Position numbers and translations under genes: made by a program. Below, in pieces: positions 6,784 to 30,782 of a stretch of 55,734 nt of DNA (positions are counted from its first letter, which is position 1; every line of letters starts with the position of its first letter). The notes below the pieces were generated by a model. The model ran no database searches. It was not told the DNA's origin and saw nothing but the letters and a program-made list of their open reading frames with translations. The stretch is from Myxococcota bacterium (GTDB taxonomy: Bacteria; Myxococcota_A; UBA796; UBA2385): positions 1-55,734 of the forward strand of contig JAKLKF010000032.1 in NCBI GenBank assembly GCA_023150805.1, read 5' to 3'.

Positions 6784-6825
6784 CTACCCGGTCGCCCGCC
6801 GCGCCGCCGCGGGGCCCCGGCGGGC

Positions 6826-6831
6826 TACGCT
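6826..6831 (+). promoter_or_regulatory. -10-like hexamer TACGCT upstream of hybrid sensor kinase
   Basis: TACGCT fits the TAnnnT -10 pattern and lies 27 bases before the GTG start at 6859, leaving room for a leader that contains the GGGAG Shine-Dalgarno. No convincing -35 hexamer is visible. Variants of the same element recur before other genes in this window. Confidence 0.35.
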
Positions 6832-6858
6832 CGGAGTCCGCACCTGTCGGGAGCCCGT

Positions 6859-9474
6859 GTGCAGACGGCCGACCCCCCCGCGCCGGGCTCGCCCGGACCC
6901 CGTCCCGCTCCGGCCGAGCCGCCAGCGGCGGAGCTGCTCTCCCAGTTCCACGAGGAGCTGCGGCTGCGCAACCAGGGCGTGCTCACCTGGTCGACCGCGG
7001 TCTTCGGGGCGCTGTACCTGGGCTGGACGGTCTTCGACTGGCTGCTGGCCCCGGAGATGTGGGCGACCTTCCTGGCGATCCGTCTCCCGGTGGCCACCTT
7101 CGGCGTCGGGGTGGCCCTGGCCTGCCGCCGCCCCGGCCTGCAGCGGCTGACCTGGGAGGCCTTCTGGGTCTGGCTCTTCGCCTGCGGGGCGGGCATCGCC
7201 ACCATGCTGCCGCACGTGGGCGACAGCGTGCTGCAGTACATCCTGGGCTACAGCCTGATCCTGTACGGCGCCGGCCTGCTGCCCTTCTGGCGCCCGGTCT
7301 GGGCGGTCAGCAACATCGTCGCCATCGTCGTCGCGGCGCCCCTGGCCTTCCTGGCCTGGCCCTGGACCTCCGACCCGCGGGACCTGGTGTCGGGGCTGTT
7401 CTTCGTGCTGACCGGCGCGGCGGCCAGCGTCGTCATGGCCACCTTCAAGTACTCGCTGTCCCGCCGGGACTTCCTCACGCGCACGGAGCTGGCCACCGCC
7501 ACCGAGCGGCTGGGGCAGGCCCTGGCGCGGCTGGAGGCCAGCGACCGCCTCAAGAACCGCTTCTTCGCCAACGTCTCGCACGAGCTGCGCACGCCGCTGA
7601 CCTTGATCCTGGCGCCGGTGCAGGCGCTGGAGGCCACCGAGGCCGACCGCCGCCGCCAGCGGGACCTGGCCACGGTGGGCCAGAACGCCGAGCGCCTGCT
7701 GCGCCTCATCGACGACCTGCTGGACCTCTCCCGCCTGGACGCCGGCGGCCTGCGCCTGCGCCTGGCCACCGTCGAGCTGCCGGCGCTGGTCCGCTCCAAC
7801 GTCGAGCGCAGCCTGCCCGCCGCCGAGCAGAAGGACCTGCGGCTGGAGGTCCAGGTGGAGGGCGAGCCGCCGCCGGTGCTGGGGGATCCGCACCGGCTGG
7901 AGATCATCGTCACGAACCTGGTCGGCAACGCCCTGAAGTACACGCCGCCCGGCGGGCGGGTCCAGGTGCGGGTGCGGCAGGCGGGGGCGGCGGTGCGCGT
8001 CGAGGTCCAGGACGACGGGCCGGGCATCCCGCCGCACGAGGTGTCCCAGGTCTTCGAGCGCTTCTTCCAGGCCGAGGGCAGCCTGAGCGTCGGCGCGGGC
8101 GGGGTCGGCATCGGCCTCTCCCTGGCGCGGGAGCTGGTGGCGCTGCACGGCGGCACCATGGACCTGGACACGGAGGTGGGCCGCGGCTCGACCTTCTCCT
8201 TCCAGATCCCCCTGGGGCGCGACCACATCCGTCCGGAGGTGATCGAGCGCCGCGGCGGCGTGGCCGAGCGGCGCGTGGGGCAGCGGGAGGGGCAGCGCCC
8301 GGGCCGCCGCGCCACCGACGCGCCGCCGCCGACGCCGGTGGAGGTCGAGGCGGCACCCCCGACCGATCCGGGGCTGCTGCCGGACGAGCGCCCGCCGCGC
8401 CTGGAGAGCGGCCGGCGGGCCCGCATCCTGGTCGCCGAGGACGAGGAGGCGCTGCGCCGCTTCGTCACCGACCTGTTGTCGGTGGACTGCGAGGTGTTGC
8501 AGGCCGCCGACGGCGAGCAGGCCTGGCGGATGGTCCAGGCCGAGCGCCCCGACCTGGTGCTCTCGGACGTGATGATGCCCGGCCGGTCGGGGCTGTCCCT
8601 GTGCCGGGCGATCAAGACCGAGCCCGAGCTGGCCGCGACCCCGGTCATCCTGCTCACCGCGCGCGCGGGCTTCGACGACACGCTGCACGCCTACGCGCAC
8701 GGCGCCGACGACTTCGTCGCCAAGCCCTTCCACCCGCGCATCCTGGTGGCGCGGGTCAACGCCCAGCTCAAGCTGCGGGCGATGTCGGCCCAGCTCGCCC
8801 AGCGCGAGAAGCTGGCGGCCGTCGGCAGCCTGGCGGCGGGGATCCTGCACGAGGTGCGCAACCCCCTCAACGCGCTGCTGTCGGCCACCCGGACGCTGTC
8901 GACCGGCAAGGTGGGCGAGACCGGGCAGCAGCGGCTGCTGGCCGTGATGCAGGACGCGGGCGAGCGGATCCACGCCCTGACCTGGACGCTGGACGCCCAC
9001 ACGCGCCCGGCGGAGCGAGGCGGTCCCGCCCTCTGCGACCTGGCGGAGGGGCTGGACTCGACGCTGCGCCTGATGCAGCACCGGCTCGGCGGCGTCGAGG
9101 TGATCCGCGACCTGCGGGGCGAGACCCGCGCCCGGGTGCAGCCGGCGCCGATCAACCAGGTCTTCGTCAACCTGCTGGACAACGCCATCAAGGCCCAGGC
9201 CCGTCACCTGTGGCTGCGGCTGGACGCCACCGGCCCACGGGTACGCCTGGTGGTCGAGGACGACGGCCGCGGCATCCCCCCCGAGGTCCTCCCGCGCATC
9301 TTCGACCCCTTCTTCACCACGGCCGGTCCCGGCGAGGGCACCGGCCTGGGGCTCTACCTGAGCCGCGACCTGGTCGAGCGCGCTGGCGGCAGCCTGACCG
9401 CCGAGGCCCGGGAGGGGGGAGGCGCTCGCTTCATCCTGGAGCTACCGGGCGAGAGCGCGTCAAGCGGGGCTTGA
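6859..9474 (+). CDS. Membrane hybrid sensor kinase with two histidine-kinase cores flanking a receiver (PhcS-like role inferred)
   Basis: An 871-residue protein starting at GTG, with GGGAG five bases upstream. Residues about 40-200 hold five or six hydrophobic segments. A dimerisation/phosphoacceptor domain follows (HELRTPL, His241) with an ATPase domain (N-box NLVGNALKY, then DDGPGIP and GIGLSLAREL). A Pro-rich linker leads to a receiver domain (LSDVMMPG, Asp570). A second kinase core then appears (HEVRNPL, His664; N-box NLLDNAIKA; DDGRGIPP; GTGLGLYLS). Hybrid kinases normally carry one kinase core, so kinase-receiver-kinase is unusual. The next two genes encode a PhcB-type methyltransferase and a receiver-kinase fusion. 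That suggests this is the membrane sensor of a Phc-like signal circuit, by analogy with PhcS. Confidence 0.85.
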   Translation: MQTADPPAPGSPGPRPAPAEPPAAELLSQFHEELRLRNQGVLTWSTAVFGALYLGWTVFDWLLAPEMWATFLAIRLPVATFGVGVALACRRPGLQRLTWEAFWVWLFACGAGIATMLPHVGDSVLQYILGYSLILYGAGLLPFWRPVWAVSNIVAIVVAAPLAFLAWPWTSDPRDLVSGLFFVLTGAAASVVMATFKYSLSRRDFLTRTELATATERLGQALARLEASDRLKNRFFANVSHELRTPLTLILAPVQALEATEADRRRQRDLATVGQNAERLLRLIDDLLDLSRLDAGGLRLRLATVELPALVRSNVERSLPAAEQKDLRLEVQVEGEPPPVLGDPHRLEIIVTNLVGNALKYTPPGGRVQVRVRQAGAAVRVEVQDDGPGIPPHEVSQVFERFFQAEGSLSVGAGGVGIGLSLARELVALHGGTMDLDTEVGRGSTFSFQIPLGRDHIRPEVIERRGGVAERRVGQREGQRPGRRATDAPPPTPVEVEAAPPTDPGLLPDERPPRLESGRRARILVAEDEEALRRFVTDLLSVDCEVLQAADGEQAWRMVQAERPDLVLSDVMMPGRSGLSLCRAIKTEPELAATPVILLTARAGFDDTLHAYAHGADDFVAKPFHPRILVARVNAQLKLRAMSAQLAQREKLAAVGSLAAGILHEVRNPLNALLSATRTLSTGKVGETGQQRLLAVMQDAGERIHALTWTLDAHTRPAERGGPALCDLAEGLDSTLRLMQHRLGGVEVIRDLRGETRARVQPAPINQVFVNLLDNAIKAQARHLWLRLDATGPRVRLVVEDDGRGIPPEVLPRIFDPFFTTAGPGEGTGLGLYLSRDLVERAGGSLTAEAREGGGARFILELPGESASSGA

Positions 9475-9583
9475 CTCCTCAGGTTGTCGCGGCAGGGTGG
9501 CGGGGAACGTGGCATGATGCCGGCCGCCCGGGCCCCCCGCCGCACCTGTTCGCGGTGGCGCGATCCCTGGCGAGGCCCACGGC

Positions 9584-11071
9584 ATGACGAAGACCTACGA
9601 CGAGCTGATCGGTGCGACGGGACGCTCGGTGTTCTTTCGCCCCGAGCGCGCCCGCGTGCGGGAGTTCCTGTCTCCCGACGCCCAGCCCGTCCTGCGCGTC
9701 GGGTCGGTCGAGCTGGCCGTCTTCGACCTGAGCATGAACGGCCTGTCGGTGCTCGCGCCGCGCGGGGCGCCGCTGCCCCCCGTCGACACCGAGGCCGACG
9801 TGGCGCTGTGGATGCACGGCCGCGCGGTCTTCGAGGGGCGGGCGCGCATCGCGCGGATCGAGGCCAGCAGCGCTGGACAGCGGGTGGGGCTGGCCCTGAC
9901 CCGCGGCTTCATCGACCTGCCCGCCATCGCCCGCGAGGACGAGGAGGCGCAGCTCGCGCGGGCCCTGGCGCAGGGGGGGCGGCCCGGACGGGACGCCGTC
10001 GGCGCGACCTACCACGACGCGCTCAACCAGGTGGTCAGCTTCGTCCAGTTCTACCGGGAGAGCCTGCGGCGGCACGAGGCCCGGTACAAGGCCGAGGGCG
10101 GGCTGCGCGGGCGCCAGGCCATCCACGACCTGGAGCAGCGGGCCCTGGCCGCGCTGCGGGAGCCCTGGCGGGCGCTGCGCATCCAGGCCAGCCAGGCCGC
10201 CGAGCCCCTGATGGCCGACCGCTCCCGCCGCTACGCCGCCAAGCAGCTCACCGAGACCCTGTTGACCCCGCTGCTGCTGGAGGCGCCTTGCGTGCGGCGC
10301 TCCTACGAGAAGCCGCTGGGCTACCCGGGCGACTACCAGGTGATGCTCTACTGCTACAACGACGCGCTCGAGGGCGACACGGTCTTCGGGCGGGTCTTCC
10401 ACAAGCTGTGGATCGAGCACCCGATGCCCGCCGGCGTGCGCACCCGGCGCGACCTGGTGGTGCAGCTGGCGCTGGCCGAGCAGGACGCGCTGCTGGCGCG
10501 GGACGGGGACGCCGCCGAGCTGCGCGTCGGCATCCTGGGCTGCGGCCCGGCGCGCGAGGTGCCCGCCTTCGTCGACCAGCGCCCCCGCTGGGGCGGCAGC
10601 GTCACCTGGACCCTGATCGACCAGGAGGAGGAGGCCCTGAGCGTGGCCTACCGCACCGCCCAGACGGCCCTGGCGCGGGCCGACGGCGGGGGCACGGCCC
10701 GCTGCCTGAACCTCTCGTTCAGCCAGCTCCTGCAGGACCCGCAGATCCTGCCGCTGGCCCGCGGGCAGCACCTGGTCGCCAGCTCGGGCCTCTTCGACTA
10801 CCTGCGCGACACCACGGCCCAGCCGCTCATCCTCGCGCTCTACGACCGCCTGGCCCCCGGCGGCCTGCTGGCCATCGGCAACGCCATCGCCCCGGCCGAG
10901 GACTTCTGGTCGCCGGAGATGGTGCTGGACTGGACGCTCATCTACCGGACCGAGCAGGACATGCGGCGGCTGGGCGCGCTGCTGCCCGAGAGCGCCCAGG
11001 TCGAGGTCCGGCCCGAGGCCGGGGGCGCCTACCACTACCTGCTGGCCCGCAAGCCGGGCGCCTCGCCTTGA
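9584..11071 (+). CDS. PilZ-SAM methyltransferase, PhcB/'EF 3-hydroxypalmitate methyl ester biosynthesis' type
   Basis: A 495-residue protein from ATG at 9584. Residues about 30-115 resemble a PilZ domain (VELAVFDLSMNGLSVLAP, then GQRVGLAL), known in other proteins to bind cyclic di-GMP. The rest is a SAM methyltransferase with a helical lid (SYEKPLGYPGDYQVM), motif I GILGCGPAREVP near residue 315, the acidic TLIDQEEEAL strand, and ASSGLFDYL. This pattern matches the family of Ralstonia PhcB, which makes a 3-hydroxy fatty acid methyl ester signal. PhcB itself has no PilZ domain, so the fusion could couple signal synthesis to c-di-GMP. It sits between a sensor kinase and a receiver-kinase gene and overlaps the latter by four bases. 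The substrate is inferred. Confidence 0.75.
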   Translation: MTKTYDELIGATGRSVFFRPERARVREFLSPDAQPVLRVGSVELAVFDLSMNGLSVLAPRGAPLPPVDTEADVALWMHGRAVFEGRARIARIEASSAGQRVGLALTRGFIDLPAIAREDEEAQLARALAQGGRPGRDAVGATYHDALNQVVSFVQFYRESLRRHEARYKAEGGLRGRQAIHDLEQRALAALREPWRALRIQASQAAEPLMADRSRRYAAKQLTETLLTPLLLEAPCVRRSYEKPLGYPGDYQVMLYCYNDALEGDTVFGRVFHKLWIEHPMPAGVRTRRDLVVQLALAEQDALLARDGDAAELRVGILGCGPAREVPAFVDQRPRWGGSVTWTLIDQEEEALSVAYRTAQTALARADGGGTARCLNLSFSQLLQDPQILPLARGQHLVASSGLFDYLRDTTAQPLILALYDRLAPGGLLAIGNAIAPAEDFWSPEMVLDWTLIYRTEQDMRRLGALLPESAQVEVRPEAGGAYHYLLARKPGASP

Positions 11072-12201
11072 CGCCCGCGGTCCTCTACGTCGACGACGAC
11101 CTGGCCAACCTCACGGTCTTCGAGGTGGCCTTCGGCGACGACTTCCCGGTGCTGACCGCGGCGGGGGGGGCCGAGGCGCTGGAGCTGCTGGGCAAGCACG
11201 AGGTCGGGGTCCTGCTGGTCGACCAGCGCATGCCCGGCATGACCGGCGTCGAGCTGCTGACGCGGGTGCGGGCCGAGCACCCCGAGCCGGTGCGCATCCT
11301 GATGACGGCCTACTCCGACCTGGCCGAGGCCATCGACGCCATCAACCAGGGGCACATCCGGCGCTACCTGCGCAAGCCGTGGAACCACGACGAGCTGCGG
11401 GCGGCCTTGCTGGAGGGGCTGGAGAGCTACGAGCTGCGGGTGCGCCTGGCCGCGATGGAGCACAAGATGCTCGAGAGCGAGCGGGTCTACGCGCTGGGGG
11501 TCGTCGCGGCGGGGGTCGCGCACGAGCTGCGCAACCCGATGATGGTGCTCATGGGGCACCTGGAGCTGGCCCGGGAGCAGGCGCGCCTGCTCGGGCTCGA
11601 CCTCGGGGTGGACCCGCGCCGGGCCCTGGCCCTGGAGGAGCGGCTGGAGGCGATCCGCCGCTCCGTCGTGCGGGTCCGGGAGATCATGGAGGGCATGAGC
11701 CTGGCGCACCGGCGTCGCGACGACGAGGTCGCGGCCGACCTCTCGGAGGTGGTCCGGCTGACCCTGACCAGCCTGCGCGGGTCGCTGCAGCGGCGGGCCC
11801 GGCTGGTCTACGACCTGCCCGCCCTGCCCCAGGTGCGGGGCTCGAGCACCCGGCTGGGCCAGGTGGCGCTCAACCTGCTGGTCAACGCGCTCCAGGCCAT
11901 CCCCGAGGGTGCCGATCCCAGCGCCCACCAGGTCACCGTGACGGTCGGGGCGGAGGAGGGCGCGGCCGTGCTGCGGGTGGCCGACACCGGGCCGGGCATC
12001 CCCGCCGAGCTGCAGGCGCGCATCTTCGAGCCCTTCTTCACGACCAAGCGCGCCGGTGGCACGGGCCTGGGGCTGGCCATCACCCGGCAGATCGTGGCGG
12101 ACCTCGGCGGCAGCATCGAGGTGGACAGCCAGGAGGGGCAGGGCACCGTCTTCACGGTGCGGCTGCCCTGGGCGCCGGTCCCGGCGCTCGACGCGCGCTG
12201 A
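11068..12201 (+). CDS. Receiver-histidine kinase fusion, PhcR-like
   Basis: A 377-residue protein. I chose TTG at 11068 because it overlaps the upstream stop (TTGA) and reads straight into VLYVDDD, the first strand of a receiver domain. The receiver has Asp52 in VDQRMPG, an MTAY switch Thr and the Lys of RKPW. It is followed by a His kinase core (HELRNP, His152; N-box NLLVNALQA; DTGPGIP; GTGLGLAIT). A receiver placed before a kinase output domain is the unusual architecture of PhcR in the Ralstonia Phc circuit. Translational coupling to the PhcB-like gene supports a joint function. It has no membrane segment and is presumably cytoplasmic. Confidence 0.82.
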   Translation: MTPAVLYVDDDLANLTVFEVAFGDDFPVLTAAGGAEALELLGKHEVGVLLVDQRMPGMTGVELLTRVRAEHPEPVRILMTAYSDLAEAIDAINQGHIRRYLRKPWNHDELRAALLEGLESYELRVRLAAMEHKMLESERVYALGVVAAGVAHELRNPMMVLMGHLELAREQARLLGLDLGVDPRRALALEERLEAIRRSVVRVREIMEGMSLAHRRRDDEVAADLSEVVRLTLTSLRGSLQRRARLVYDLPALPQVRGSSTRLGQVALNLLVNALQAIPEGADPSAHQVTVTVGAEEGAAVLRVADTGPGIPAELQARIFEPFFTTKRAGGTGLGLAITRQIVADLGGSIEVDSQEGQGTVFTVRLPWAPVPALDAR

Positions 12202-12232
12202 GGCGCCCCTCGCCCGCGCCGGGCGGCGGTGT

Positions 12233-12238
12233 CATGCT
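12233..12238 (+). promoter_or_regulatory. -10-like CATGCT, predicted leaderless start of the sugar operon
   Basis: CATGCT ends six bases before the GTG start at 12245, with no purine-rich ribosome binding site between. A -10 element at this distance places transcription initiation at or next to the start codon. The first base departs from the TAnnnT consensus. Confidence 0.3.
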
Positions 12239-12244
12239 GGCCCC

Positions 12245-13096
12245 GTGAACGTCCTCCTCCTCGGCGGCAGCGGCTTCATCGGTCGGCACCTCCGGAGCGC
12301 CCTGCCGGCGGCGCGCGCGCCCGCCCGGTCCGACCTCGACCTGGCCGACCCGGCGGCCGTGCGGGCCTCCCTGCGCGCGCTGCGCCCCGACCTGGTCTTC
12401 AACCTGGCCGCCGCGGGGGTCCACCCCTCCGACCGGGCGCCCTCGCGCCTGCGCGCGATCAACGAGGGGCTGCCGCGGCTGCTGGCCGAGGAGCTGGCCG
12501 AGGGTGCGGTCCTGGTGCACGCCGGCTCGGCCGCCGAGCTGGGCGCGGGCGCCGACGCCGACGAGGGGGTCGCCTGCGAGGGGGCCGCCGGCCCCTACGG
12601 CCAGAGCAAGCGCGCCGGCACGCGGGCGGTGCTGGAGGTGGCCGCGGCGCGGGGGCAGCGCGCCGTGGTGGCGCGGCTCTTCTCGGTCTACGGCCCCGGC
12701 GAGGCGCCCCACCGCCTGCTGCCCCAGCTGCAGGCCGCGGCGCGAGAGACCAGCCGGTGGCCGCTGCCGCTCACGGAGGGCCACCAGCGGCGAGACCTGA
12801 CCTACGTCGGCGACGTCGTGCAGGGGCTGCTCGCGCTGGCGCGGGCCGCGCCCGCCGGGGGGACCCTGGTCAACCTGGCCACCGGCCGGAACACCCCGGT
12901 GCGGGAGCTGGTGGAGCGGGCCGCGGCGTTGCTGGGCCTGCCGGCGGGGGCCCTGGCCTTCGGCGCGTTGCCCGAGCGGCCCGACGAGCCCGCGCACGGC
13001 GCGGTGCCGGTCGCGCGCCTGCGCGCCCTGGTGGGGTGGGCGCCCCCGACCGGCCTGGAGGAGGGCCTGCGCCGCACCTTCGAGGCCGCGCCGTGA
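12245..13096 (+). CDS. NAD(P)-dependent epimerase/dehydratase (extended SDR)
   Basis: A 283-residue protein with the N-terminal nucleotide-binding motif GGSGFIG (residues 7-13) and the catalytic pair Tyr118 and Lys122 in YGQSK. Extended SDR enzymes of this size interconvert NDP-sugars, for example as 4-ketoreductases or epimerases. The start is GTG at 12245, directly after the kinase gene. Its stop overlaps the GTG of the glycosyltransferase by four bases, making it the first gene of a three-gene sugar operon. The exact sugar cannot be told from the sequence. Confidence 0.85.
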   Translation: MNVLLLGGSGFIGRHLRSALPAARAPARSDLDLADPAAVRASLRALRPDLVFNLAAAGVHPSDRAPSRLRAINEGLPRLLAEELAEGAVLVHAGSAAELGAGADADEGVACEGAAGPYGQSKRAGTRAVLEVAAARGQRAVVARLFSVYGPGEAPHRLLPQLQAAARETSRWPLPLTEGHQRRDLTYVGDVVQGLLALARAAPAGGTLVNLATGRNTPVRELVERAAALLGLPAGALAFGALPERPDEPAHGAVPVARLRALVGWAPPTGLEEGLRRTFEAAP

Positions 13097-21610: not shown

Positions 21611-22198
21611 ATGCCTTACGAGTACGACATCTTCTTGAGCTACCCGCGAGCGGGCGCCATCGGGGACTGGGTGCGCGACCTGTTCCACCCGGAGCTGGTG
21701 AAGCGATACCCGGATTGCTGCACCCCCCGTTTCGGCCCGGTGTTCTTCGATCAGGAGATGGAGCGCGGCGGCAGCCTGCCCGACCGCCTCGCCCATGGCC
21801 TCCGCAGCTCCGCGGTGATCGTGACGGTGTGGTCGCCCCGGTACTTCGCCAGCGACTGGTGCACGGCGGAGTGGCAGTCGATGCGGGCGCGAGAGCGCCT
21901 CTTCGGTCGCCCCGTGGGCCAGGGGCCGGCCATCGTCTACCCGGTGGTCTACGGCGACGGCGACGACTTCCCCCTGGAGGCACGCGAAACGCTCCAGCAG
22001 CGCTGCTTCAGGCGCTTCGCCCACCTGGCCAAGGACGCGCCCGGCGACGTGGCGCTGACCGAGCTGCGGGGCGAGGTGGTGAAGCTCTGTGAAGACCTGG
22101 CCCGGTGGGTCGCCGCCGCGCCCGACTGGCAGGCGAATCTCCCCGTCGAGCCCCCCTCCACGACCCACCAGCCGTGGCGCAACCCGAGCCGCTTATGA
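21611..22198 (+). CDS. TIR-domain protein
   Basis: A 195-residue protein with a TIR domain from about 3 to 130: YDIFLSYPRAG, VFFDQEMERGGSLPDRLAHGL, then VTVWSPRYFASDWCTAEW with the catalytic-type Glu87. TIR domains hydrolyse or cyclise NAD+. The remaining C-terminal part is helical and unassigned. Its stop overlaps the ATG of the giant downstream gene (ATGA), so the two are translationally coupled and probably work together. It stands alone without a membrane segment or sensor domain, so it is a likely effector or signal producer. Confidence 0.85.
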   Translation: MPYEYDIFLSYPRAGAIGDWVRDLFHPELVKRYPDCCTPRFGPVFFDQEMERGGSLPDRLAHGLRSSAVIVTVWSPRYFASDWCTAEWQSMRARERLFGRPVGQGPAIVYPVVYGDGDDFPLEARETLQQRCFRRFAHLAKDAPGDVALTELRGEVVKLCEDLARWVAAAPDWQANLPVEPPSTTHQPWRNPSRL

Positions 22199-25100
22199 CC
22201 CCTGGCACCGTCATCACCTTCTACAGCTTCAAGGGCGGCGTCGGCCGGACCTTCCTGCTGGCCAACGCCGCGGTGCTGCTGGCCCGGTGGGGCTTCCGCG
22301 TCCTGTGCATCGACTTCGACCTGGAGGCGCCGGGGCTGCGGGACTACTTCCGCCCGCACCTGTCCGGCCCCGCCCCTGCGGGGATGGTCGAGCTGATCCT
22401 TGCCCACGCGCAGGGTCGCCCGATCGCCTGGCCCGAGCTGTTGGAGCCTGTACTCGTCGAGGGCTGCGTGGACCGGCTGCACCTGCTGGGCGCCGGGCAG
22501 TCCGCCTCGGCCACCTACCCGGGCCTGCTGCGGGACCTGGACTGGGATCGCCTGTACTCCGATCATGGCTTCGGACCGGTCCTGGAGCGCTGGCGAAAGG
22601 AGTGGGTCGAGGGCCTGGGCGGGCAGCTCCCAGGCAGCTCGGTTCCGGCCTTCGACTTCGTGCTGGTCGACTCCCGGACGGGCCTCACCGACATCCAGGG
22701 GGTCTGCACTTCCCAGCTCCCCGACGTGCTGGTCGCCATGTTCACGCCCAACCAGCAGAGCCTGGACGGGGTGGTGCGGGTGGTCGACCAGGCCCGCCGC
22801 CAGCGGGATCGCCTGCCCTTGGACCGGCCGCCCTTCCGCGTGCTGCCGGTGCCCTCACGCTGCGACTTCGATGACCACGGGGACCTGGCGAACAAGTGGA
22901 TGGCTACCTTCGCTGCCGAGCTGGGCCGCTTCTACGACGACTGGCGCCATCAGTCGGTGTCATATGACCGCCTGCTCCAGCTCCTGCGGCTGGACTACCG
23001 CTCCCGGTGGAGCTTCGGCGAGGATCTGCCGGTCATGGACGAGCAGATCGACGACCCGGCCACCATCAGCCACCGGGTGGCGACCATCACCGCCCTGCTT
23101 GCTCGGCGCCTGCACGGCAGCGACCTGTTGGCCGAGAACCGGGACGGCTTCGTCCGGACCAGCACGGCGGCCCAGTTCCTGGGGCGACGGGGCGCCTTCG
23201 AGTACGAGCTGTTCCTGAGCTACGAGAAGTCCGACCAGGCCTACGCCGCCGAGCTGCGAGGGCTGCTGGAGGGCCTGGGCGCGCGCGTGTGGATGGACGG
23301 CGGCGGCATCGGCGTGGGCGACCGGCTCTTCCCCGCGATCGAGCAGGCCCTGCAGACCAGCCGCCACATGGTCTACCTGTGCGGCGCGCAGTCCGCTCGC
23401 AGCCGGTGGCAGCAGATCGAGCTGCTGGGCTTCCAGGGCGCCACCGAGACCGACCCCTCGCGTCGCATCCTGCCGGTGCAGCGTGGGGGGGTGCTGCCAG
23501 CGTCCCTGGCGCAGTCGCCGGCCATCCACGCGGTGAACCTGCCTGCCTCCCAGGTCGCCGCTGAGATCCTGGCCGCCCTCGACCAGGCGCCCGGTGCCCG
23601 TCCGACCCCCTTGCAGCCGGCCCGCGACCCGGTCGTGGCCTGGCGAGAGCACTTGCGCAAGGCCCACGCCGAGCTGATCCCCTTCCTGCCCGACGCCGAC
23701 TCCAAGGCCCTGGCCGAGGTCTACGTCGCGCTCGATCTGTCTGTGCAGGACCGGTCCGTGCAGGACCGGTCTGGGCGGGACCTGGCGGACGACACGCAGC
23801 GGCGGATCGAGGTCACGCGAGGCGCCTGCTCGCTGTCGGACCTGCTGGCCAGCCCGGGGGAGGGTGGAGGCAGCGCCCGCTGGGTCCTGGTCGGAGAGCC
23901 CGGCGCAGGCAAGACCACCTCGCTGCGGCACCTGGCCTGGACCCTGGCGGGCGGCGACGACCAGCCGGTCCCGGTCTACTTGTCCCTGGCGCGCCTTGGG
24001 TCCCTGCGCGACCCCTTCCTGCTGGCCGAACAGGAGCTGGCAGACGCGGGTCCGCTGACCGGCTCGCTGTCCCAGGCGTTGCGGCGGCTGTCCGAGCCAC
24101 TCCCGGGCGGGCCCTCTCGCCTGTGGCTGCTGCTGGACGGCCTGGACGAGGTCGCGCCGGCCGAGATGGAAGAGACGGTCGGCTGGATCCGCGGCCTGTC
24201 CCGTTCCCTGCCTGGTGTCGTCATCGTGGTCACCAGTCGGCCCATCGCCTTGGAGCGCAACGGACCGGGCACAGGCTTCGTCCGGGCGTCGCTGCTGCCG
24301 CTGGGCGCAGCCGCGCAGGAGGAGCTGCTCCGCCGGCTGCTGGACCCCGCCGACGCTGACTCGGTCCTGGCCATGCTGGCGGCGCCCGGCAACCGGGCCC
24401 TGGCCGAGCTGGGCCGCAACCCCTTGATGCTGACCCTGATCGCCCTGGTCACCCGCGAGACGGGCGCCCGAGGCGAGGGCCCCCCGCGGCACCGGCTGAG
24501 CCTGTACGACCAGGCCGTGAGCCTGGTGTTGCGGCGAGGGCACGGGGTGCAGAAGCGCGGCGTGCAGGATCCCGCGCTGGCCCGGCGGATCCTGCAGGCC
24601 CTGGCGCTCCAGCTCCAGCGAGAGGGCGGCGAGGCCTGGCCGCGGTCGGCGCTGGACGAGGCCATCTGGACCCTTCGCCGCGCCGACGAGGAGCTGAATT
24701 CCCGCCTGAAGCAGACCTGGCCCCGCGGCAACGACGAGCTGCTGGACGACCTGGGCTTCAACGGCGGGGTGCTGGGCCCCCACGACGGCCCCGGGGCACC
24801 CTGGCGCTTCCTGCACCGCTCCCTGCGGGAATTCCTGGCCGCCGAGGCCCTGGCCCGGCGCGGTGACGCCGCCATCGACGAGTGGGTGCAGGGCTGGCTC
24901 CTGGCCCTTCGGTCGCGCGAGAAGGCGGGACATCGGGGCGCCAAAGGCGCCGAGGGCGCCCGGACCGCTGAGCCCGCCCGGTGGGGCGAAGTCTTCAGCC
25001 TGCTGTGCGGCATGGTGTCCGAGCCGCTGAAGCGGCTGGCGCAGCTCCGACAGGTGGACGGAGGCGGCGCCCTGGCCCTGCGGGCCCTGCCCTCGGTCGA

Positions 25101-25998
25101 TGGGCTGACGGCGCGGCAGGGTGTCGCCTTCCTGGTGGAGACACCCGGCTGGGGGCCCGACGACCTGCTGGCCCTGGCCGACCGGAACGGCATCGCGGAC
25201 TTCGTGGAGGCGCTGTGGGCCCAGGTCCACCCCCAGGCGCCGACGGCCACCCTGGCGGCGGTGCACTACACCCTGGAGGTCCTGGGGCGGCCCGCGGCGC
25301 GGGCGGAGTTCTTCGCCCGCGCAGGCCGGGTCCTGCCGGCGGTCGACCTGGTGCCGACCTGCCGGATCCCGGCGGGCGCCTTCGACATGGGCGGCCCGGA
25401 CGGTGTCGGCGGGTCCGACGAACGACCCCGCCACCGGGTCCGCATCGGGAGACCCTTCCGACTGGGCCGGACCCCGGTGACGGCAGGCCAGTACCGGGCC
25501 TTCGACCCGGCGGTGGGGCCCGGGCCCGATGACCTGCCGGTCGTCGGGGTCGACTGGTATGAAGCCCGGCTGTACTGCGTTTGGCTGGGCGGCCGCCTGC
25601 CCACCGAGGCGGAGTGGGAGTACGCCTGCCGCGCTGGCACCACCACGGCCTGGTGGTCCGGCGATTCGGAGGCCGACCTGGCGCGGGTCGGCTGGTACGA
25701 CCAGAACAGTGGAATGACGCTCCACCCGGTGGGCGGTAAGCCGGCGAACCCCTGGGGCCTGCACGACCTGCACGGCAACGTCTGGGAGTGGTGCGCCGAC
25801 GGGCCGCGACCCTACTCTCCGGAGCCCCAGGTCGACCCTGTGGGGCCGACCCCCGCCGCGGGCGGCAGGCGCGTGGTGCGTGGCGGGTCGGCCTGGGACT
25901 TCGCGTTCAGGTCCCGCTCGGCCTTCCGGAGCGTCGGGCACCCGTGGCTCCGGAACGGCCTCGTCGGCTTCCGCGTCGCCCTCCCCAGCGGGGATTGA
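22195..25998 (+). CDS. ParA-like ATPase-TIR-NACHT-FGE conflict protein with DGR-type variable C-terminus
   Basis: A 1267-residue protein. Residues 1-300 are a ParA/SIMIBI-type ATPase with deviant P-loop KGGVGRT (13-19) and DFDLEAPG. Residues about 332-445 are a second TIR domain (YELFLSYEKSD; SRWQQIEL retains the Glu four residues after Trp). A NACHT/STAND NTPase follows, with Walker A GEPGAGKTT (567-575), Walker B LLLDGLDEV (about 645) and TSRP. After a helical region comes an FGE-sulfatase fold (about 1053-1267: GGRLPTEAEWEYACRAG, DLHGNVWEW, VVRGGSAW, VGFRVALP). FGE folds are C-type-lectin-like and serve as DGR-diversified binding domains. The last 43 codons differ from those of the convergent paralogue only at codon positions 1 and 2. 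Likely a sensor that binds a target through FGE and activates TIR through NACHT. It is coupled to the upstream TIR gene. Confidence 0.88.
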   Translation: MTPGTVITFYSFKGGVGRTFLLANAAVLLARWGFRVLCIDFDLEAPGLRDYFRPHLSGPAPAGMVELILAHAQGRPIAWPELLEPVLVEGCVDRLHLLGAGQSASATYPGLLRDLDWDRLYSDHGFGPVLERWRKEWVEGLGGQLPGSSVPAFDFVLVDSRTGLTDIQGVCTSQLPDVLVAMFTPNQQSLDGVVRVVDQARRQRDRLPLDRPPFRVLPVPSRCDFDDHGDLANKWMATFAAELGRFYDDWRHQSVSYDRLLQLLRLDYRSRWSFGEDLPVMDEQIDDPATISHRVATITALLARRLHGSDLLAENRDGFVRTSTAAQFLGRRGAFEYELFLSYEKSDQAYAAELRGLLEGLGARVWMDGGGIGVGDRLFPAIEQALQTSRHMVYLCGAQSARSRWQQIELLGFQGATETDPSRRILPVQRGGVLPASLAQSPAIHAVNLPASQVAAEILAALDQAPGARPTPLQPARDPVVAWREHLRKAHAELIPFLPDADSKALAEVYVALDLSVQDRSVQDRSGRDLADDTQRRIEVTRGACSLSDLLASPGEGGGSARWVLVGEPGAGKTTSLRHLAWTLAGGDDQPVPVYLSLARLGSLRDPFLLAEQELADAGPLTGSLSQALRRLSEPLPGGPSRLWLLLDGLDEVAPAEMEETVGWIRGLSRSLPGVVIVVTSRPIALERNGPGTGFVRASLLPLGAAAQEELLRRLLDPADADSVLAMLAAPGNRALAELGRNPLMLTLIALVTRETGARGEGPPRHRLSLYDQAVSLVLRRGHGVQKRGVQDPALARRILQALALQLQREGGEAWPRSALDEAIWTLRRADEELNSRLKQTWPRGNDELLDDLGFNGGVLGPHDGPGAPWRFLHRSLREFLAAEALARRGDAAIDEWVQGWLLALRSREKAGHRGAKGAEGARTAEPARWGEVFSLLCGMVSEPLKRLAQLRQVDGGGALALRALPSVDGLTARQGVAFLVETPGWGPDDLLALADRNGIADFVEALWAQVHPQAPTATLAAVHYTLEVLGRPAARAEFFARAGRVLPAVDLVPTCRIPAGAFDMGGPDGVGGSDERPRHRVRIGRPFRLGRTPVTAGQYRAFDPAVGPGPDDLPVVGVDWYEARLYCVWLGGRLPTEAEWEYACRAGTTTAWWSGDSEADLARVGWYDQNSGMTLHPVGGKPANPWGLHDLHGNVWEWCADGPRPYSPEPQVDPVGPTPAAGGRRVVRGGSAWDFAFRSRSAFRSVGHPWLRNGLVGFRVALPSGD
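25867..25995 (+). repeat. Putative DGR variable region A (3' end of ParA-TIR-NACHT-FGE gene)
   Basis: The 43 codons from the AGG at 25867 to the GAT before the stop align without gaps to 27185-27057 on the minus strand. Twenty bases differ, all at codon positions 1 or 2, none at position 3, and they cluster in the surface loops of the FGE fold. The 27 bases at 25963-25989 are identical in both copies. A template with AAC-type codons at the variable sites would explain the pattern through adenine-specific mutagenesis. Confidence 0.75.
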
Positions 25999-26031
25999 TG
26001 CGGGGCCTTTGATCATAGAGTGTGTGGCAAG
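25996..26031 (+). repeat. 36-bp shared tail A after variable region (IMH-like position)
   Basis: From the stop codon onward, 36 bases are identical to the reverse complement of 27021-27056, then identity stops abruptly. Most of it is non-coding, so protein selection does not explain the conservation. It sits where the initiation-of-mutagenic-homing and target-recognition sequences lie in DGRs, and includes the palindrome TGATCA. Confidence 0.8.
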
Positions 26032-26052
26032 GTCCGGTCGGGTGGCCGCTGT

Positions 26053-26068
26053 CGGCCGCAAGCGGCCG
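26053..26068. other. GC-rich hairpin after variable region A
   Basis: CGGCCGC and GCGGCCG are separated by AA, a perfect 7-bp stem 21 bases after the shared tail. GC-rich hairpins or cruciforms just downstream of a variable region assist target recognition in the Bordetella phage DGR. A comparable hairpin lies beyond the other tail. Such stems can also occur by chance in DNA this GC-rich. Confidence 0.4.
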
Positions 26069-26176
26069 CGTGGGGAGGTTCCACCAGGCGGCGTGGAGGC
26101 TCAAGGGCCTGGAGCGGCGGGGTGGTGTGTCGCCCCACCGGCCGTCAGCGGCCGCCAGCGGAAGGCAGCGCGGCCG

Positions 26177-26200
26177 GGCGTGTACCGGAAAGTACCCGCC
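26177..26200 (+). other. Hairpin in leader of the HTH gene
   Basis: GGCGTGTAC and GTACCCGCC can pair over nine positions with one mismatch around the loop CGGAAA. It lies about 80 bases before the HTH gene start, within the 281-base stretch 25999-26279 that has no gene. The rest of that stretch holds the shared tail, the GC hairpin and the GGAGG site before 26280; I see no template repeat in it. Confidence 0.35.
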
Positions 26201-26279
26201 GCGGCCGCGGGGGAATCACAACCGGCCGGGTCCGGCCATCTGTGGGTGTCGACGACCGCTGTCGGCATGGAGGTGCAGG

Positions 26280-26636
26280 ATGGAGCTCACGGTCCGCGAG
26301 GCGGCCACCCTGCTGGGTCGGAGCCCCCGGGCGGTGCGTGCGCAGGCTGCACGGGGAGAGCTGCCCGCCGTGAAGCGAGGGCGGCAGTGGCTCATCGTCT
26401 CGGAGGGGGTGCCCCTGACGCCGACCCAGCGCCGCGCCGTCCAGGCACGCGCCGACTCCGTGCGCGCGGTGGTCGAGGCGGCGCTCCCAGGACGGGACGC
26501 GCGCTCGACCGGGGACCGCTACAGGGGACTGGGCGATCTGGAGGCGTTCGTGTTGGTTCGGGACGCGGCGCGTGGGGCGCGGGCGCTGGGTGCGGCCTTG
26601 CCGGCGGAGCTGGTGCCGGAGCTGGAGGGCGCCTGA
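26280..26636 (+). CDS. Excisionase-type helix-turn-helix protein between the two variable regions
   Basis: A 118-residue protein starting at ATG 26280 behind a strong GGAGG site. Residues 1-42 match an excisionase/MerR-type winged HTH (LTVREAATLLGRSPRAVRAQ, then RGRQWLIV), a DNA-binding fold. The C-terminal 70 residues are helical and unassigned. It lies exactly between two FGE genes with DGR-like 3' ends, so it may be an accessory DNA-binding factor for target recognition or a regulator of the island. It does not clearly resemble Avd, the usual DGR accessory protein. Confidence 0.7.
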   Translation: MELTVREAATLLGRSPRAVRAQAARGELPAVKRGRQWLIVSEGVPLTPTQRRAVQARADSVRAVVEAALPGRDARSTGDRYRGLGDLEAFVLVRDAARGARALGAALPAELVPELEGA

Positions 26637-26653
26637 AGCACCCGCTGGCCAGG

Positions 26654-26905
26654 GTGCTGAGCTGCAGCGGCACCCTGGATGCGTTGGGACACCGCCTGCG
26701 GCGGGACGGCCTCCGTCCCCGGGCCCGCGGTCTGCGACGGATGCAGCGTCGGGTCCACTACGCGGTCGCCGGGGGGCACAGCGGCGCCGAAGTCGGCCGC
26801 AGCCTGCCGTCAACGGTCGGCCTGGCGATGTTCGGTGCCGTCGCTGACCGCGTCGATGCCCAGGCGGAGCGCTGGCGGCCGGATCAGGCGGCCGACGACG
26901 GCTGA
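26654..26905 (+). CDS. Small helical protein of unknown function
   Basis: An 83-residue ORF from GTG 26654. The frame is open further upstream, and a CTG at 26633 would overlap the HTH gene stop as CTGA, so the true start is uncertain. It is Arg-rich in the first half (LRRDGLRPRARGLRRMQRRV) and ends in a predicted helix. Third codon positions are consistently G or C, as in neighbouring real genes. I do not recognise the family. It follows the HTH gene immediately and may be its partner, possibly nucleic-acid binding given its basic charge. Confidence 0.5.
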   Translation: MLSCSGTLDALGHRLRRDGLRPRARGLRRMQRRVHYAVAGGHSGAEVGRSLPSTVGLAMFGAVADRVDAQAERWRPDQAADDG

Positions 26906-26993
26906 ACGCGGCCACCGGAGGGTCGCGGGATGGCGCACGACGAGCGAGACTGCGGCGCCGCAGGGGGTATCGGGCCCGGATGCGGTCGCCGGT

Positions 26994-27009
26994 CGGCCGG
27001 CAACGGCCG
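26994..27009. other. GC-rich hairpin after variable region B
   Basis: CGGCCG, loop GCAA, CGGCCG: a 6-bp stem 11 bases beyond the shared tail of the minus-strand FGE gene, mirroring the hairpin after the other tail. The remaining bases between 26906 and 27020 hold nothing else I can name. Confidence 0.35.
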
Positions 27010-27020
27010 GGCGTCCGCCA

Positions 27021-27056
27021 CTTGCCACACACTCTATGATCAAAGGCCCCGCATCA
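27021..27056 (-). repeat. 36-bp shared tail B after variable region
   Basis: Exact inverted copy of 25996-26031, running from the stop codon of the TIR-NACHT-FGE gene outward. The two tails form inverted repeats about 1 kb apart around the HTH and small helical genes, so homologous recombination could in principle invert that segment. Confidence 0.8.
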
Positions 27057-30000
27057 ACCCTCGCTGGGGAGGGCGACGCGGAAGCCGACGTCGACGTCCC
27101 GGACCCCCGGGCGCCCGCCGTCCCGGCAGGCCGAGCGGGCCCCGCCCGCGACGCCCCAGGCCGACCCGCCACGCACCACGCGCCCGCCGCCCGCGGGGGG
27201 ACCCGATGGGTCGTCGGCCGCGTCCTTGGTGTAGGTCCGATAGGCGCGGCACTCGGTCCACTCCCACACGTTGCCGTGCAGGTCGGACAGTCCCCAAGGG
27301 TTGCTGCGGCCTTGCCTGCCGACGGGCTCAGGGGCCTCTGTCGCTGCGTGCTGGGGCAATTCCCGCGCGTCATCCCCGAACCACCACTGGCCCTGGGTCC
27401 CGGCCCGGCAGGCGACCTCCCACTCCGCCTCGGTGGGCAGGCGGCCCCCGGCCCACGCCGCGAACAGGCGGGCCTCGAACCAGGTCACCCTTGTCACGGG
27501 CATGTCGGCGGGATCGTCCCGTCCGCGCTCCGCATCAAAGGCCGCGTACTGCCCCGCGGTGACCGGCGTGCGGCCCAGCGTGTAGGGCCGAGAGAAGCGC
27601 ACCCGGTGCCGCGGGTGTTCATCTGGATCACCGACGCCTTCCGGGCTGCCCACCCAGCCCTCTGTCGTCGGGACGGGCACCAGGTCGAGCGTCGGCCGCA
27701 CCAGCTCTCCGAGCCCGCTGACCGCCAGGAAGCGAGGCCAGTCGCCGTCCTTGCGTCGCTCCAGCGTGTACCACAGCACGCCCAGGCGGAACCGGCTGCG
27801 CTCCGTTGCCGCGGCCTCCCACAACGACGCGTGGTCGACCTCGGCCAGCGAATCCACCACCGCGTCCAGGCTGTCGTTATCCCAGCCTTCCTCCAACTCG
27901 ACCAGCCGCCGGACCCGCTCCCACCCATCCATCCAGTCGCAGGTCGGCAGCGCGCGCGCCACCAGCTCCGGCGCGCTGCCGCTCAGCCGCTCCAGCCAGG
28001 ACCGCCCCTGCTCCCCCAACAGGGCCGCCATCAGGGCCACCACCTCGCCGGAGCGGGCGGGCCCCGTCTCGCGTCCCGCCTTCCGGCGCTCCTGTTCTTC
28101 GGTCACCAGCTCGTCGACGATCTGCTCCCGCCCGGGGTCGGCGACCAGCGCCTCGGCGGCCAGCAGCTCCCGGAAGCTGCGGTGCAGGTAGCGCCAGCGC
28201 CCGCCCAGGCCGTCCAGCGGCCCGATCAGGCCCGCGTGGTGGTGCAGGTCATCGAGCAGGTCGGCGTCCGAGCGCCAGTAGCCCGGGAAGTACCGCGCCA
28301 GCGCCGGCTGCCCCAGCAGCGAGCGGGCATGTTGCTCTACCTCGGCCCGCTTCCAGGCCTCGCCGCCCGCCCGCTGTAGGGCAAGGCTCAGGGGCGCCAG
28401 CAGCTCCCGCGCCGCCCCGGGCGAGACCACGCCGCCCCCGGTCTCATCACCCTCGCCGGCCCCCCAGCCGCGCCGCAGGCAGTCGTCGATGGCCCGTGAC
28501 AGCAGCTCGGCCCGCGAGCGGATGGGCGCCTGCCCGGCCTCGCCGCGGACCAACAGCACGGCAGCCAGGGTGAGCAGGAAGGGGTTGCGGGCCAGGACGG
28601 CGAAGCCGCTCAAGCGATCGGCCTGCGCCCAGAAGTCCTTGCAGTCCTCGTCCTCGACCAGCACGTGCTTCACCAGCTCCCGCTGGCGACCGGGATCGAG
28701 GTAGTTGATGCGGGCCCGGACGAAGCCCGGCCAGCCTTCCGCGTCCACCGCTACCGGCCGGGCGGTCACCAGCATGGGCACGTGGGCCAGCGCGGGAGTG
28801 GCGGCCCAAGACTGCAGGCGCCGGTAGACGGCCGAGGGTTCGCGCACCTCGTCGTAGCCGTCCAGCAGCAGCAGCAGGCGCCCCTCGGCCGCGGCGGCGC
28901 GCAGGGTGGCGAGCAGGGCTTCGTCTTCACCGGCGGCGGCCTGCAGCGGGTCGCGGGCACCTTCGGCCCCAGCCAGGGCCAGCAACACGGGCAGCCGCGC
29001 GTCCCCGCTGTCGGGCGCGCAGATGCGGTGCACCGCCCAGCGCAGCATCGTGGTCTTGCCGGCGCCGGGCTCGGCGGCGACCAGCCAGCGGGGTGCGCGA
29101 CCATCGGGGCCGGGTCGGCAGCGCGCCGGCGAGAGCAGGTCCAGGATGGACGCCGGGGGGCCGTGCGGGACGGATCGGCCCACGTCCATGCAGTCCGGGT
29201 CGGCGCCTTCGACCATCTCCAGCTCGACGGGGACGAGATCCAGGGGTGCGCCGACGCCGCGGCGCAGCCAGGGGAACCGCGGCCGGTGGTCGAGGTGCTG
29301 GCGCGCCCGGAAGGCGGTCGCGGGGTCGACGGGGGGCGGCGCCAGCCCGGCGGCATCTGCCGCCCATGCGCGGAGCTGGTCGAGCAGCTCATCGCTGCGG
29401 GTCCAGGGCGTGTGGCAAGGCAGGCAGCTCATGCGGAGCGCCCGGTCCTTGCGCAGCAGGGTGACGGGCACTCCCCCCTGGTGCAGGTAGCCGGCGACGA
29501 TGGCCAGCCAGGCGGTCTCGTCGCTGTGGGGGGCGTCGTCCGGTGGCGCGTCCTCGGGGATGACCCAGGCGCAGTGTCCGACATCGGCGAGGTGCTGTGC
29601 CAGGGCGTCGAGGGGGCAGGCGCGGATGTCCAGGACCTGCACGTCGGGCAGGGCCTGCTTGACATCCGCCTGCAGGTCGGTCCACAGATCGTCGCCGGGG
29701 CAGAGCACGACCGCCCGCAGGCCCTTGCGGGCAGGCCCCGGTGAGGGGCGCCACTCCTGGTGCGTCAAGGCCAGCTCGCGCACCCGGTTGGGCGCGAGCC
29801 CGCGCCCGTTTCTCACGCGCTCCTGCAACGGGCCCTCCTGGAGCCAGCGCGGCGCGTCCGACTGGCACAGGCTCAGCGCGACCGGTCGCCCGGCGGCCAG
29901 GGCGACCCCCAGCTCCCACCCGACGAAGGCGTTGGCCCGGTCGACGAAGGCCAGCAGCCCGTCGCAGTCCCGGATCTTGGCACCCAGCAGCTCGGCCAGG

Positions 30001-30137
30001 GCGTCCCCTGCCGGGTCGTCCGAGAGCACGGCGGCGAACTGGATCTGGGACAGCCGCGAATTCGCCCTCAGGTCGCGGATGATGTCCCGGGCGTTGGGGA
30101 TGCGGGCGTCGTAGGAGAGGAAGATGCGCCGGGTCAA
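27054..30137 (-). CDS. TIR-like-NACHT-FGE conflict protein with DGR-type variable C-terminus
   Basis: A 1027-residue protein from TTG 30137, preceded by GGAG at six bases. GTG at 30182, almost abutting the Uma2 stop, is a longer alternative. Residues 1-105 are a TIR-like domain (RRIFLSYDARIP, then FVGWELGVALAAGRPV with the conserved Glu). A linker precedes a NACHT NTPase (Walker A AEPGAGKTT near 356-364, Walker B LLLLDGYDEV near 420, TARP). Helical repeats follow, then an FGE-sulfatase fold from about 815 (GGRLPTEAEWEVACRAG, DLHGNVWEW, VGFRVALP). It shares the NACHT-FGE plan of the convergent giant but lacks the ParA ATPase. Its C-terminal codons bear the same substitution pattern. Likely a diversified sensor; downstream in an operon with a Uma2 nuclease. 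Confidence 0.86.
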   Translation of the reverse strand: MTRRIFLSYDARIPNARDIIRDLRANSRLSQIQFAAVLSDDPAGDALAELLGAKIRDCDGLLAFVDRANAFVGWELGVALAAGRPVALSLCQSDAPRWLQEGPLQERVRNGRGLAPNRVRELALTHQEWRPSPGPARKGLRAVVLCPGDDLWTDLQADVKQALPDVQVLDIRACPLDALAQHLADVGHCAWVIPEDAPPDDAPHSDETAWLAIVAGYLHQGGVPVTLLRKDRALRMSCLPCHTPWTRSDELLDQLRAWAADAAGLAPPPVDPATAFRARQHLDHRPRFPWLRRGVGAPLDLVPVELEMVEGADPDCMDVGRSVPHGPPASILDLLSPARCRPGPDGRAPRWLVAAEPGAGKTTMLRWAVHRICAPDSGDARLPVLLALAGAEGARDPLQAAAGEDEALLATLRAAAAEGRLLLLLDGYDEVREPSAVYRRLQSWAATPALAHVPMLVTARPVAVDAEGWPGFVRARINYLDPGRQRELVKHVLVEDEDCKDFWAQADRLSGFAVLARNPFLLTLAAVLLVRGEAGQAPIRSRAELLSRAIDDCLRRGWGAGEGDETGGGVVSPGAARELLAPLSLALQRAGGEAWKRAEVEQHARSLLGQPALARYFPGYWRSDADLLDDLHHHAGLIGPLDGLGGRWRYLHRSFRELLAAEALVADPGREQIVDELVTEEQERRKAGRETGPARSGEVVALMAALLGEQGRSWLERLSGSAPELVARALPTCDWMDGWERVRRLVELEEGWDNDSLDAVVDSLAEVDHASLWEAAATERSRFRLGVLWYTLERRKDGDWPRFLAVSGLGELVRPTLDLVPVPTTEGWVGSPEGVGDPDEHPRHRVRFSRPYTLGRTPVTAGQYAAFDAERGRDDPADMPVTRVTWFEARLFAAWAGGRLPTEAEWEVACRAGTQGQWWFGDDARELPQHAATEAPEPVGRQGRSNPWGLSDLHGNVWEWTECRAYRTYTKDAADDPSGPPAGGGRVVRGGSAWGVAGGARSACRDGGRPGVRDVDVGFRVALPSEG
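27057..27185 (-). repeat. Putative DGR variable region B (3' end of TIR-NACHT-FGE gene)
   Basis: Gapless counterpart of 25867-25995. Where the copies differ, this one nearly always carries G where the other carries A, T or C. The invariant 27-base block is at 27063-27089. It encodes the C-terminal FGE loops between VVRGGSAW and VGFRVALP. Confidence 0.75.
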
Positions 30138-30185
30138 AGGACGCTCCAAGGGGCCCCAGGCTACCAGGGCGAGGAGCCCCACTGC

Positions 30186-30782
30186 TCAGGTGGTCGGCGC
30201 CCCGGCGTCGGCCAGGAGCGCCTCGTCCAGGCCGGCGAAGACCTCGACCAGCGGCAGCTCGACGCCCAGCTCCGGCAAGAGCAGCACCCCCTCGTCCCGG
30301 GCCTCGGTGAGCACCCACCCGTCCGCGGCGCGGGCGTAGCGCTCGACCCGCCGGTCGGGCGGGCTCACGAAGAGCACGGCGGCGACGGAGGTGCGCCGAC
30401 GGTAGTGGGCGAACTTCACGTCCTTGTCGAAGGCGGCGGTCGAGCCGGACAGCACCTCGATCAGGACCTTGGGGTTGGTCAGCGTGGGTGGCGAGGTGGG
30501 CACCGTCTCGGGGGCGCCGCAGACGATGGTCAGGTCGGGGTAGCAGTACAGCCCGGTCTCGTCGATGAGCACGCGCTGATCCGAGGAGTAGACCCTGCAT
30601 GGGGTGCCCCGCAGGCGTAGGCCCAGGGCGATGCCCACGTTCATCGTGACCAGGTTGTGCGCCAGGGCGCCCCCCGCCATGGACCACACCTCGCCGTTGA
30701 CGTACTCGTGCTTGCCTTCGTGGGCGAGGTCGAAGGCCAGGTACTCCTGGATGGTCATGCGGGTTCGCGGGGCGAGCGTCAT
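30186..30782 (-). CDS. Uma2-family endonuclease-like protein
   Basis: A 198-residue protein of the Uma2/DUF820 family with a PD-(D/E)XK-type core: EYVNGEVWSMAG, YPDLTIVCG for the metal-binding Asp, KVLIEVLSGST for the Glu, and DKDVKFAHYRR. Members are common in multicellular bacteria and are predicted nucleases of unclear role. It lies just before the TIR-NACHT-FGE gene on the same strand, so it may be a nuclease effector or partner. TAGGAT six bases before the ATG predicts a leaderless mRNA. Confidence 0.88.
   Translation of the reverse strand: MTLAPRTRMTIQEYLAFDLAHEGKHEYVNGEVWSMAGGALAHNLVTMNVGIALGLRLRGTPCRVYSSDQRVLIDETGLYCYPDLTIVCGAPETVPTSPPTLTNPKVLIEVLSGSTAAFDKDVKFAHYRRRTSVAAVLFVSPPDRRVERYARAADGWVLTEARDEGVLLLPELGVELPLVEVFAGLDEALLADAGAPTT

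Follow-up and report, generated by a model that had tools for sequence, protein, structure and literature searches.

Two convergent NACHT-FGE genes

The window, a 55,734-nt stretch of contig JAKLKF010000032.1 from a Myxococcota bacterium (GCA_023150805.1), harbours two convergent receptor genes, here called A and B, with 1055 bp between them. Their facing 3′ ends behave as variable repeats (VRs) of a diversity-generating retroelement (DGR), and the spacer holds fragments of what was likely the DGR that wrote them. The assembly of this genome (G000) comprises 7.77 Mb in 398 contigs, and is 90.7% complete and 4.6% contaminated.

Both genes possess open reading frames (Table 1). Pfam recognised CbiA (8e-8), TIR_2 (1.5e-13), NACHT (1.5e-12) and FGE-sulfatase (1.7e-47) in the product of gene A, for which an alternative start is possible at 22195. 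This TIR-NACHT-FGE order, with an effector before and a sensor behind the ATPase, is the architecture of NACHT (STAND) antiviral receptors. Gene B encodes NACHT (6e-7) and FGE-sulfatase (1.5e-37) domains, and Pfam named no N-terminal domain or effector in it. The VRs lie in a C-type lectin (CLec)/FGE fold, as in DGR targets, according to the FGE-sulfatase matches and to Foldseek matches to FGE and to TvpA (2y3c).

Base differences between the gene ends

Aligned without gaps from the stops, the last 44 codons of genes A and B (stop included) differ at 20 bases, ten at the first codon position, ten at the second and none at the third. Upstream in the FGE part, 208 aligned codons hold 75, 70 and 96 differences at positions 1, 2 and 3, and 41 codons differ silently. 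A previous reading made from the sequence alone (the sequence-only reading) had described both the end differences and the silent divergence upstream, and both were confirmed.

Two controls were used. Along the 779 codons over which A and B align, 41-codon windows that stay away from the end contain at least 15 third-position differences (median 21), and those at the very end go down to 0. Among 15 other FGE genes of G000, the last 41 codons show a median of 20 third-position differences in 101 pairs (105 pairs were possible and 4 were dropped for poor alignment); the minimum was 4, in a pair which itself resembles a VR pair. The 10/10/0 pattern lies far beyond both controls, and therefore the observation holds. 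Such a restriction of changes to the first two codon positions, at the 3′ terminus of a target gene, is what is expected of a VR and supports the proposal of DGR-type variable regions on these NACHT-FGE proteins.

The shared end proposed by the sequence-only reading exists and is larger than was stated. The near-identical block spans 180 nt (25852-26031 versus 27200-27021), extends 33 nt beyond the stops and then breaks off. Of the 20 differences, three (the first one and the final two) fall outside the VR core, and the two ends together form a 207-nt inverted repeat.

Remnants in the spacer

The spacer encodes two fragments with counterparts in G020, a genome of another family of the same order. 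The first is the front of an HTH gene: 26280-26549 is 73% identical to residues 1-90 of the G020 HTH protein, and the profile alignment reaches residue 103 at 26588. The second comprises the last 80-90 or so residues of a reverse transcriptase (RT). Positions 26621-26869 match residues 262-347 of 358 in P0204 (63%, E 3e-21), the RT that best matches the remnant among 120 listed RTs, and 26633-26851 match residues 276-351 of the G020 RT at 59% (59-61% over the last 76-79 residues); the profile match begins at 26624. Both fragments have the order and orientation found in G020, and are the sole matches to either protein in G000.

Measured between the start of the HTH gene and the residue that corresponds to the RT end, the distance is 572 nt in the window and 2251 nt in G020, so approximately 1.7 kb is missing. 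The missing part would include the back of the HTH gene, the template repeat (TR) and the RT to about residue 272, with its SQ motif (residue 210) and YVDD (residue 243). A frameshift in the RT remnant, with RT similarity starting at 26550 in another frame, was considered and dropped (p ~0.02 with single sequences, p 0.22 with the family profile).

Table 1. Features of the window, and of the related cassette on contig G020:C300 (last three rows, coordinates of that contig).
Feature	Position	Strand	Remarks
Gene A, MinD/ParA-like NTPase - TIR - NACHT - FGE	22105..25998	+	1297 aa from first GTG
VR-A core (RVVRGG...VGFRVA)	25870..25980	+	homologous to G020 TR and VRs; differs from VR-B at codon positions 1 and 2 only
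Post-VR element GATCWTAGAGNGNGTG behind gene A	26011..26026	+	12 nt past stop; pattern search and comparison
Truncated HTH accessory gene, 118-aa frame	26280..26636	+	HTH_17 4e-10; front homologous to G020 195-aa HTH protein
Putative deletion junction zone	26550..26620	+	secure HTH similarity stops at 26549, RT similarity starts at 26621-26633; ambiguous between
C-terminal DGR RT remnant	26621..26905	+	similarity to 26869; frame open to 26905
Post-VR element behind gene B	27026..27041	-	12 nt past stop; pattern search and comparison
Gene B, NACHT - FGE	27054..30182	-	1042 aa; faces gene A
VR-B core	27072..27182	-	same basis as VR-A core
G020 HTH gene	4823-5407		195 aa
G020 TR	5788-5916		
G020 RT	6021-7073		with GLPIGACTSQ and YVDD

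Search for a template and an RT in G000

Queries with the VRs returned only the two VRs themselves in this 90.7%-complete assembly. A longer query including FGE-coding sequence gave 11 matches in G000, namely the two VRs and weaker ones (e.g. contig C362, 71%) which are taken to be other FGE genes. A TR inside the window was also rejected: VR-B finds only partial matches there, the best of 70 nt (76%, 50524-50590) and the others of 14-58 nt (E 5e-5 to 0.1), none spanning half of the VR, and we read them as GC-rich chance or distant similarity. In addition, 80 distant FGE relatives from many phyla were used in a batch tblastn, and 13 of the 80 in an alignment.

The RT Pfam family and three DGR RT queries detected no DGR RT besides the remnant in the 7.77 Mb. 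Contig C222 of G000 (L032, 8635-10756) encodes a reverse transcriptase which was rejected as a DGR RT; its motif is LPQGAPLSP and not GxxxSQ, and it adjoins a CRISPR-associated gene, Cas_APE2256, upstream. In G000 we found no TR with adenine mismatches, no RT with GxxxSQ and YxDD, and, as Avd or accessory protein, only the front of the HTH-Avd-like gene. The locus is not a complete DGR in G000; in what was checked, it agrees with two DGR targets lying as a pair.

A second likely VR pair is present on contig C354 of G000 (L278, 15576-15720 and 17946-18062), where two FGE genes differ at 9/9/4 bases by codon position over 42 codons. All four third-position differences lie in the last five codons, and 16 of the 18 variable sites are A in the TR of G008:C161, a genome of the same family. 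No TR for this pair turned up in the opening 40 kb of the contig, nor anywhere else in G000.

Template adenines in related genomes

Contig G020:C300 carries a NACHT-FGE target, the HTH gene, the TR, the RT and the reversed flank of a second, facing VR at the contig end, in this order. Seven regions around RT matches were examined in relatives, and five gave a TR/VR pair: G002:C313 (same genus as G000), G008:C161 and G008:C113, G016:C188 (same order) and G020:C300. L127 and L130 (G013:C244) gave none. Within a 39-codon frame, TR/VR mismatches fall at TR adenines in 19/24, 14/15, 9/9, 15/16 and 15/16 cases, respectively.

The same frame holds 18 variable sites of the window and 99 other sites. 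The G020 TR has A at 12 of the 18 variable sites versus 9 of the 99 others, and similar counts were obtained with the TRs of G008:C113 (11/18 versus 10/99), G016 (14/18 versus 17/99), G008:C161 (12/18 versus 18/99) and G002 (14/18 versus 15/99). When only codon positions 1 and 2 are considered, the G020 counts are 12/18 versus 9/60 (p 5.4e-5), and in the downstream part 10/11 versus 5/29. The variable sites of the window thus correspond to template adenines of its relatives. The sequence-only reading had proposed a random replacement of template adenines, and named the lack of a template repeat or DGR RT in the complete genome, or of a correspondence to adenines, as what would speak against it. 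The adenine correspondence stands with the five TRs of relatives; the template itself and a DGR RT were not found in the 90.7%-complete assembly of G000.

Related cassettes and the HTH-RT pair

A similar layout is present in G013, from another family of the order. Contig C244 carries, at about 9360-12620, a VR with its tail, the HTH gene, the RT and a facing VR. Similarity to the RT starts only at residue 104, and the place of the TR and the RT front is taken by approximately 1 kb of different DNA, which contains an unrelated frame; no TR was recognised on this contig. The two VRs differ at 12/11/0 bases by codon position over 42 codons, and the match listings report one stop inside each of the HTH and RT matches. 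This contig shows a second broken cassette of like layout. G007:C566 and G053:C1 possess only partial VR similarity and no cassette.

The HTH protein was detected in three of the 60 genomes of the order that were searched (G000, G013 and G020). In the protein database, 74 of 82 homologues have at least 180 amino acids, while that of the window has 118. Among the matches listed, 18 of the 36 HTH homologues on contigs of at least 2300 bp sit on a contig identical in size to that of a G020-type RT (17 distinct sizes, that of G020 included), and jittered sizes gave at most 3; size identity is an indirect proxy for a shared contig. All 120 listed G020-type RTs (120 of 324 matches) contain GxxxSQ, and 109 of the 120 contain [YF]xDD of the tested form. 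This coincidence of sizes suggests that the HTH gene and a G020-type RT form a widespread pair, of which the copy in the window is broken. In NCBIfam, PHROGs and PADLOC, the G020 RT and HTH protein matched generic RT and excisionase/HTH entries.

A probably reduced DGR and the alternatives

We consider it likely that the VRs of the facing NACHT-FGE genes were written by a DGR between them, which in G000 is now reduced to the front of the HTH gene and the back of the RT. In the intact form, as in G020, the TR transcript would be copied by the RT together with an Avd-like helper, with errors at adenines, and the error-bearing copy would overwrite each target at its 3′ end, as in the known DGR mechanism. 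The lineage of the window has probably lost by deletion the 1.7 kb in which the TR, the Avd-like half and the RT catalytic core would lie, and both receptors would keep the FGE-loop specificity of their last rewriting. Domain content and published relatives predict that the FGE loops sense invaders and that NACHT and TIR respond.

Because only HTH and RT fragments lie in the spacer, and no TR or other DGR RT was found in G000, the cassette in cis appears gutted. The VRs would then probably be frozen, except if a DGR outside the assembled sequence acts on them in trans. The seeming loss of the mutator was apparently recent, since paralogues widely diverged at silent sites share VRs without a silent difference. 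The active adaptive-recognition layer envisaged by the sequence-only reading is not supported for G000, given the broken cassette and the missing template and DGR RT. The locus presents a pair of bacterial receptors that has seemingly shed its mutator, and makes it testable whether bacteria get rid of a DGR in order to fix receptor specificities of use to them.

Several points weigh against this explanation. With 398 contigs, 90.7% completeness and 4.6% contamination, the assembly leaves room for a TR and an RT elsewhere in the genome. The deletion is deduced from a distant relative and not from a sister strain, and its junction is placed only to 26550-26620. At six of the 18 variable sites the G020 TR has a base other than A, five of these sites lying in the upstream half, and from 4 to 7 of the 18 miss adenine in the other four TRs; G020 belongs to another family, so its TR is not the one of this cassette. 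The Avd identity of the helper derives from a predicted fold and from context. Finally, the VR of an FGE gene on G020:C191 has 16 mismatches to the C300 TR, every one at a TR adenine, and trans rewriting in G020 looks real.

The VRs of the window could thus in principle be served from elsewhere. The leading alternative is that the cassette in cis is broken and that a complete DGR, located in an unassembled part of the genome, continues to rewrite both VRs in trans. We regard this as rather unlikely. The piece of G020:C191 gave no match to the RT or HTH queries, the VR pair on G000:C354 has neither TR nor RT, VR-A and VR-B have accumulated zero silent differences, and trans activity at degenerate loci is reported by Dore et al. 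2024 (PMC10907252). These observations are set against the 7.77 Mb of G000, where no TR-like copy and no DGR RT besides the remnant were found, and against the protein database, where gene B is present as one protein sequence on 3 contigs with no VR variant among them, which slightly favours a frozen VR.

It is improbable that the deletion is an artefact of assembly or of a strain mixture, and that the organism has an intact cassette. In favour of this reading, the locus contains long inverted repeats, VRs are places where short-read assemblies break (the end of G020:C300 falls inside a VR), and Dore et al. report that a population can hold intact alongside degraded variants (PMC10907252). Nevertheless, the ends of the cassette are joined inside a 62-kb contig and away from the VR repeats, G020 shows, at the site of the joint, no repeat of more than a few bases, and a similar break is seen independently in G013. 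Gene conversion of the paralogue ends, with selection favouring amino-acid changes and no DGR involved, would be possible between the arms of the 207-nt inverted repeat and is very improbable, as ordinary selection is not expected to give 20 of 20 differences at positions 1 and 2 matching TR adenines of other genomes, and the pieces of a DGR-type RT and its HTH partner between the genes, above all the RT remnant, speak strongly against it.

HTH-Avd-like helper and post-VR element

No Avd model of Pfam or NCBIfam matched the HTH-Avd-like protein. Unlike the Avd of BPP-1 (PDB 4dwl) and S23/PF05635 proteins (2gsc, 2rld), the putative Avd-like part is here fused to an N-terminal HTH. The conserved 16-nt element behind the VRs was seen only alongside this fusion. 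The search of the open-access literature found no published report of an HTH-Avd fusion in a DGR.

We tentatively suggest a DGR subtype in which the HTH fused to the Avd helper would read the post-VR element GATCWTAGAGNGNGTG, and so direct a single template to two facing NACHT-FGE receptors as well as to remote ones, and in which repeated loss of the TR and RT core would lock the receptors as fixed immune genes. The HTH-Avd-like protein and the element lead to a concrete hypothesis on the way in which a single DGR could reach several targets, both in cis and in trans.

Comparison with known systems

DGR-diversified NACHT receptors and degenerate DGR loci are already published, and the locus is of this known kind. 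Dore et al. 2024 described DGR-diversified NACHT and nSTAND CLec targets in multicellular bacteria (PMC10907252), with a central NACHT and a C-terminal CLec/FGE domain bearing the VR, often two per locus (commonly so in one clade) and some with TIR. Degenerate loci with the RT or TR lost, and structural variants coexisting within a population, are also described (PMC10907252). Similar to these loci, the window possesses NACHT and a C-terminal FGE VR, two targets, TIR and a degenerate DGR. Unlike in those loci, the targets face each other around the cassette, the putative deletion leaves HTH and RT fragments adjacent, and the type represented by the window and G020 carries the HTH-Avd-like gene and the post-VR element. 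Within the known kind, the locus is thus set apart by its facing targets, by the HTH-Avd-like fusion together with the post-VR element, and by a putative deletion from which HTH and RT fragments remain.

Kaur et al. 2020 linked FGS-domain effectors of VMAP ternary conflict systems to DGRs, including vWA-FGS fusions with a MoxR ATPase (PMC7159879). The window is similar in that an FGE/FGS-type variable domain is tied to a DGR in a conflict system, and differs in that its fusions are NACHT-FGE. In BPP-1, the VR is followed by a short non-TR element needed for homing, a GC-rich hairpin of 7-10 bp whose loop measures 4 nt, located within 4-34 bp (Guo et al. 2011, PMC3240598). A short non-TR element likewise lies behind the VRs of the window. 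In contrast to BPP-1, it is a conserved 16-nt sequence, and no hairpin or cruciform distinct from shuffled sequence was detected behind the VRs (z -1.29 for VR-A, -0.03 for VR-B).

The predicted fold of the gene A FGE domain resembles Treponema TvpA, a DGR variable protein (PDB 2y3c; Foldseek E 4e-14, TMq 0.77). Catalytic FGEs match the predicted structure a little better than TvpA does (best E 1.7e-16), and its VR portion has low confidence.

Other observations

A gene for a putative endonuclease of the Uma2 family (PF05685, 4.9e-27) is located just upstream of gene B on the same strand (30186-30782, -). In G001, of the same genus as G000, contig C81 (L252) carries two facing NACHT-FGE genes (6-2582 and 2741-5959) with approximately 160 bp between the stops and unlike FGE ends. 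No cassette and no post-VR element were found with them, and the pair may represent a fully lost cassette or be unrelated. On the short contig G002:C313 (L125), DGR RT similarity is present in two pieces (1287-1460 and 4147-4623) approximately 2.7 kb apart, either an interrupted RT or an assembly joint. In the protein database, a ParA-TIR-NACHT-FGE protein similar to that of gene A (P0081), an HTH protein of 143 amino acids (P0098) and an RT of 268 amino acids (P0276) come from contigs of identical size (49252), possibly a third decayed cassette.

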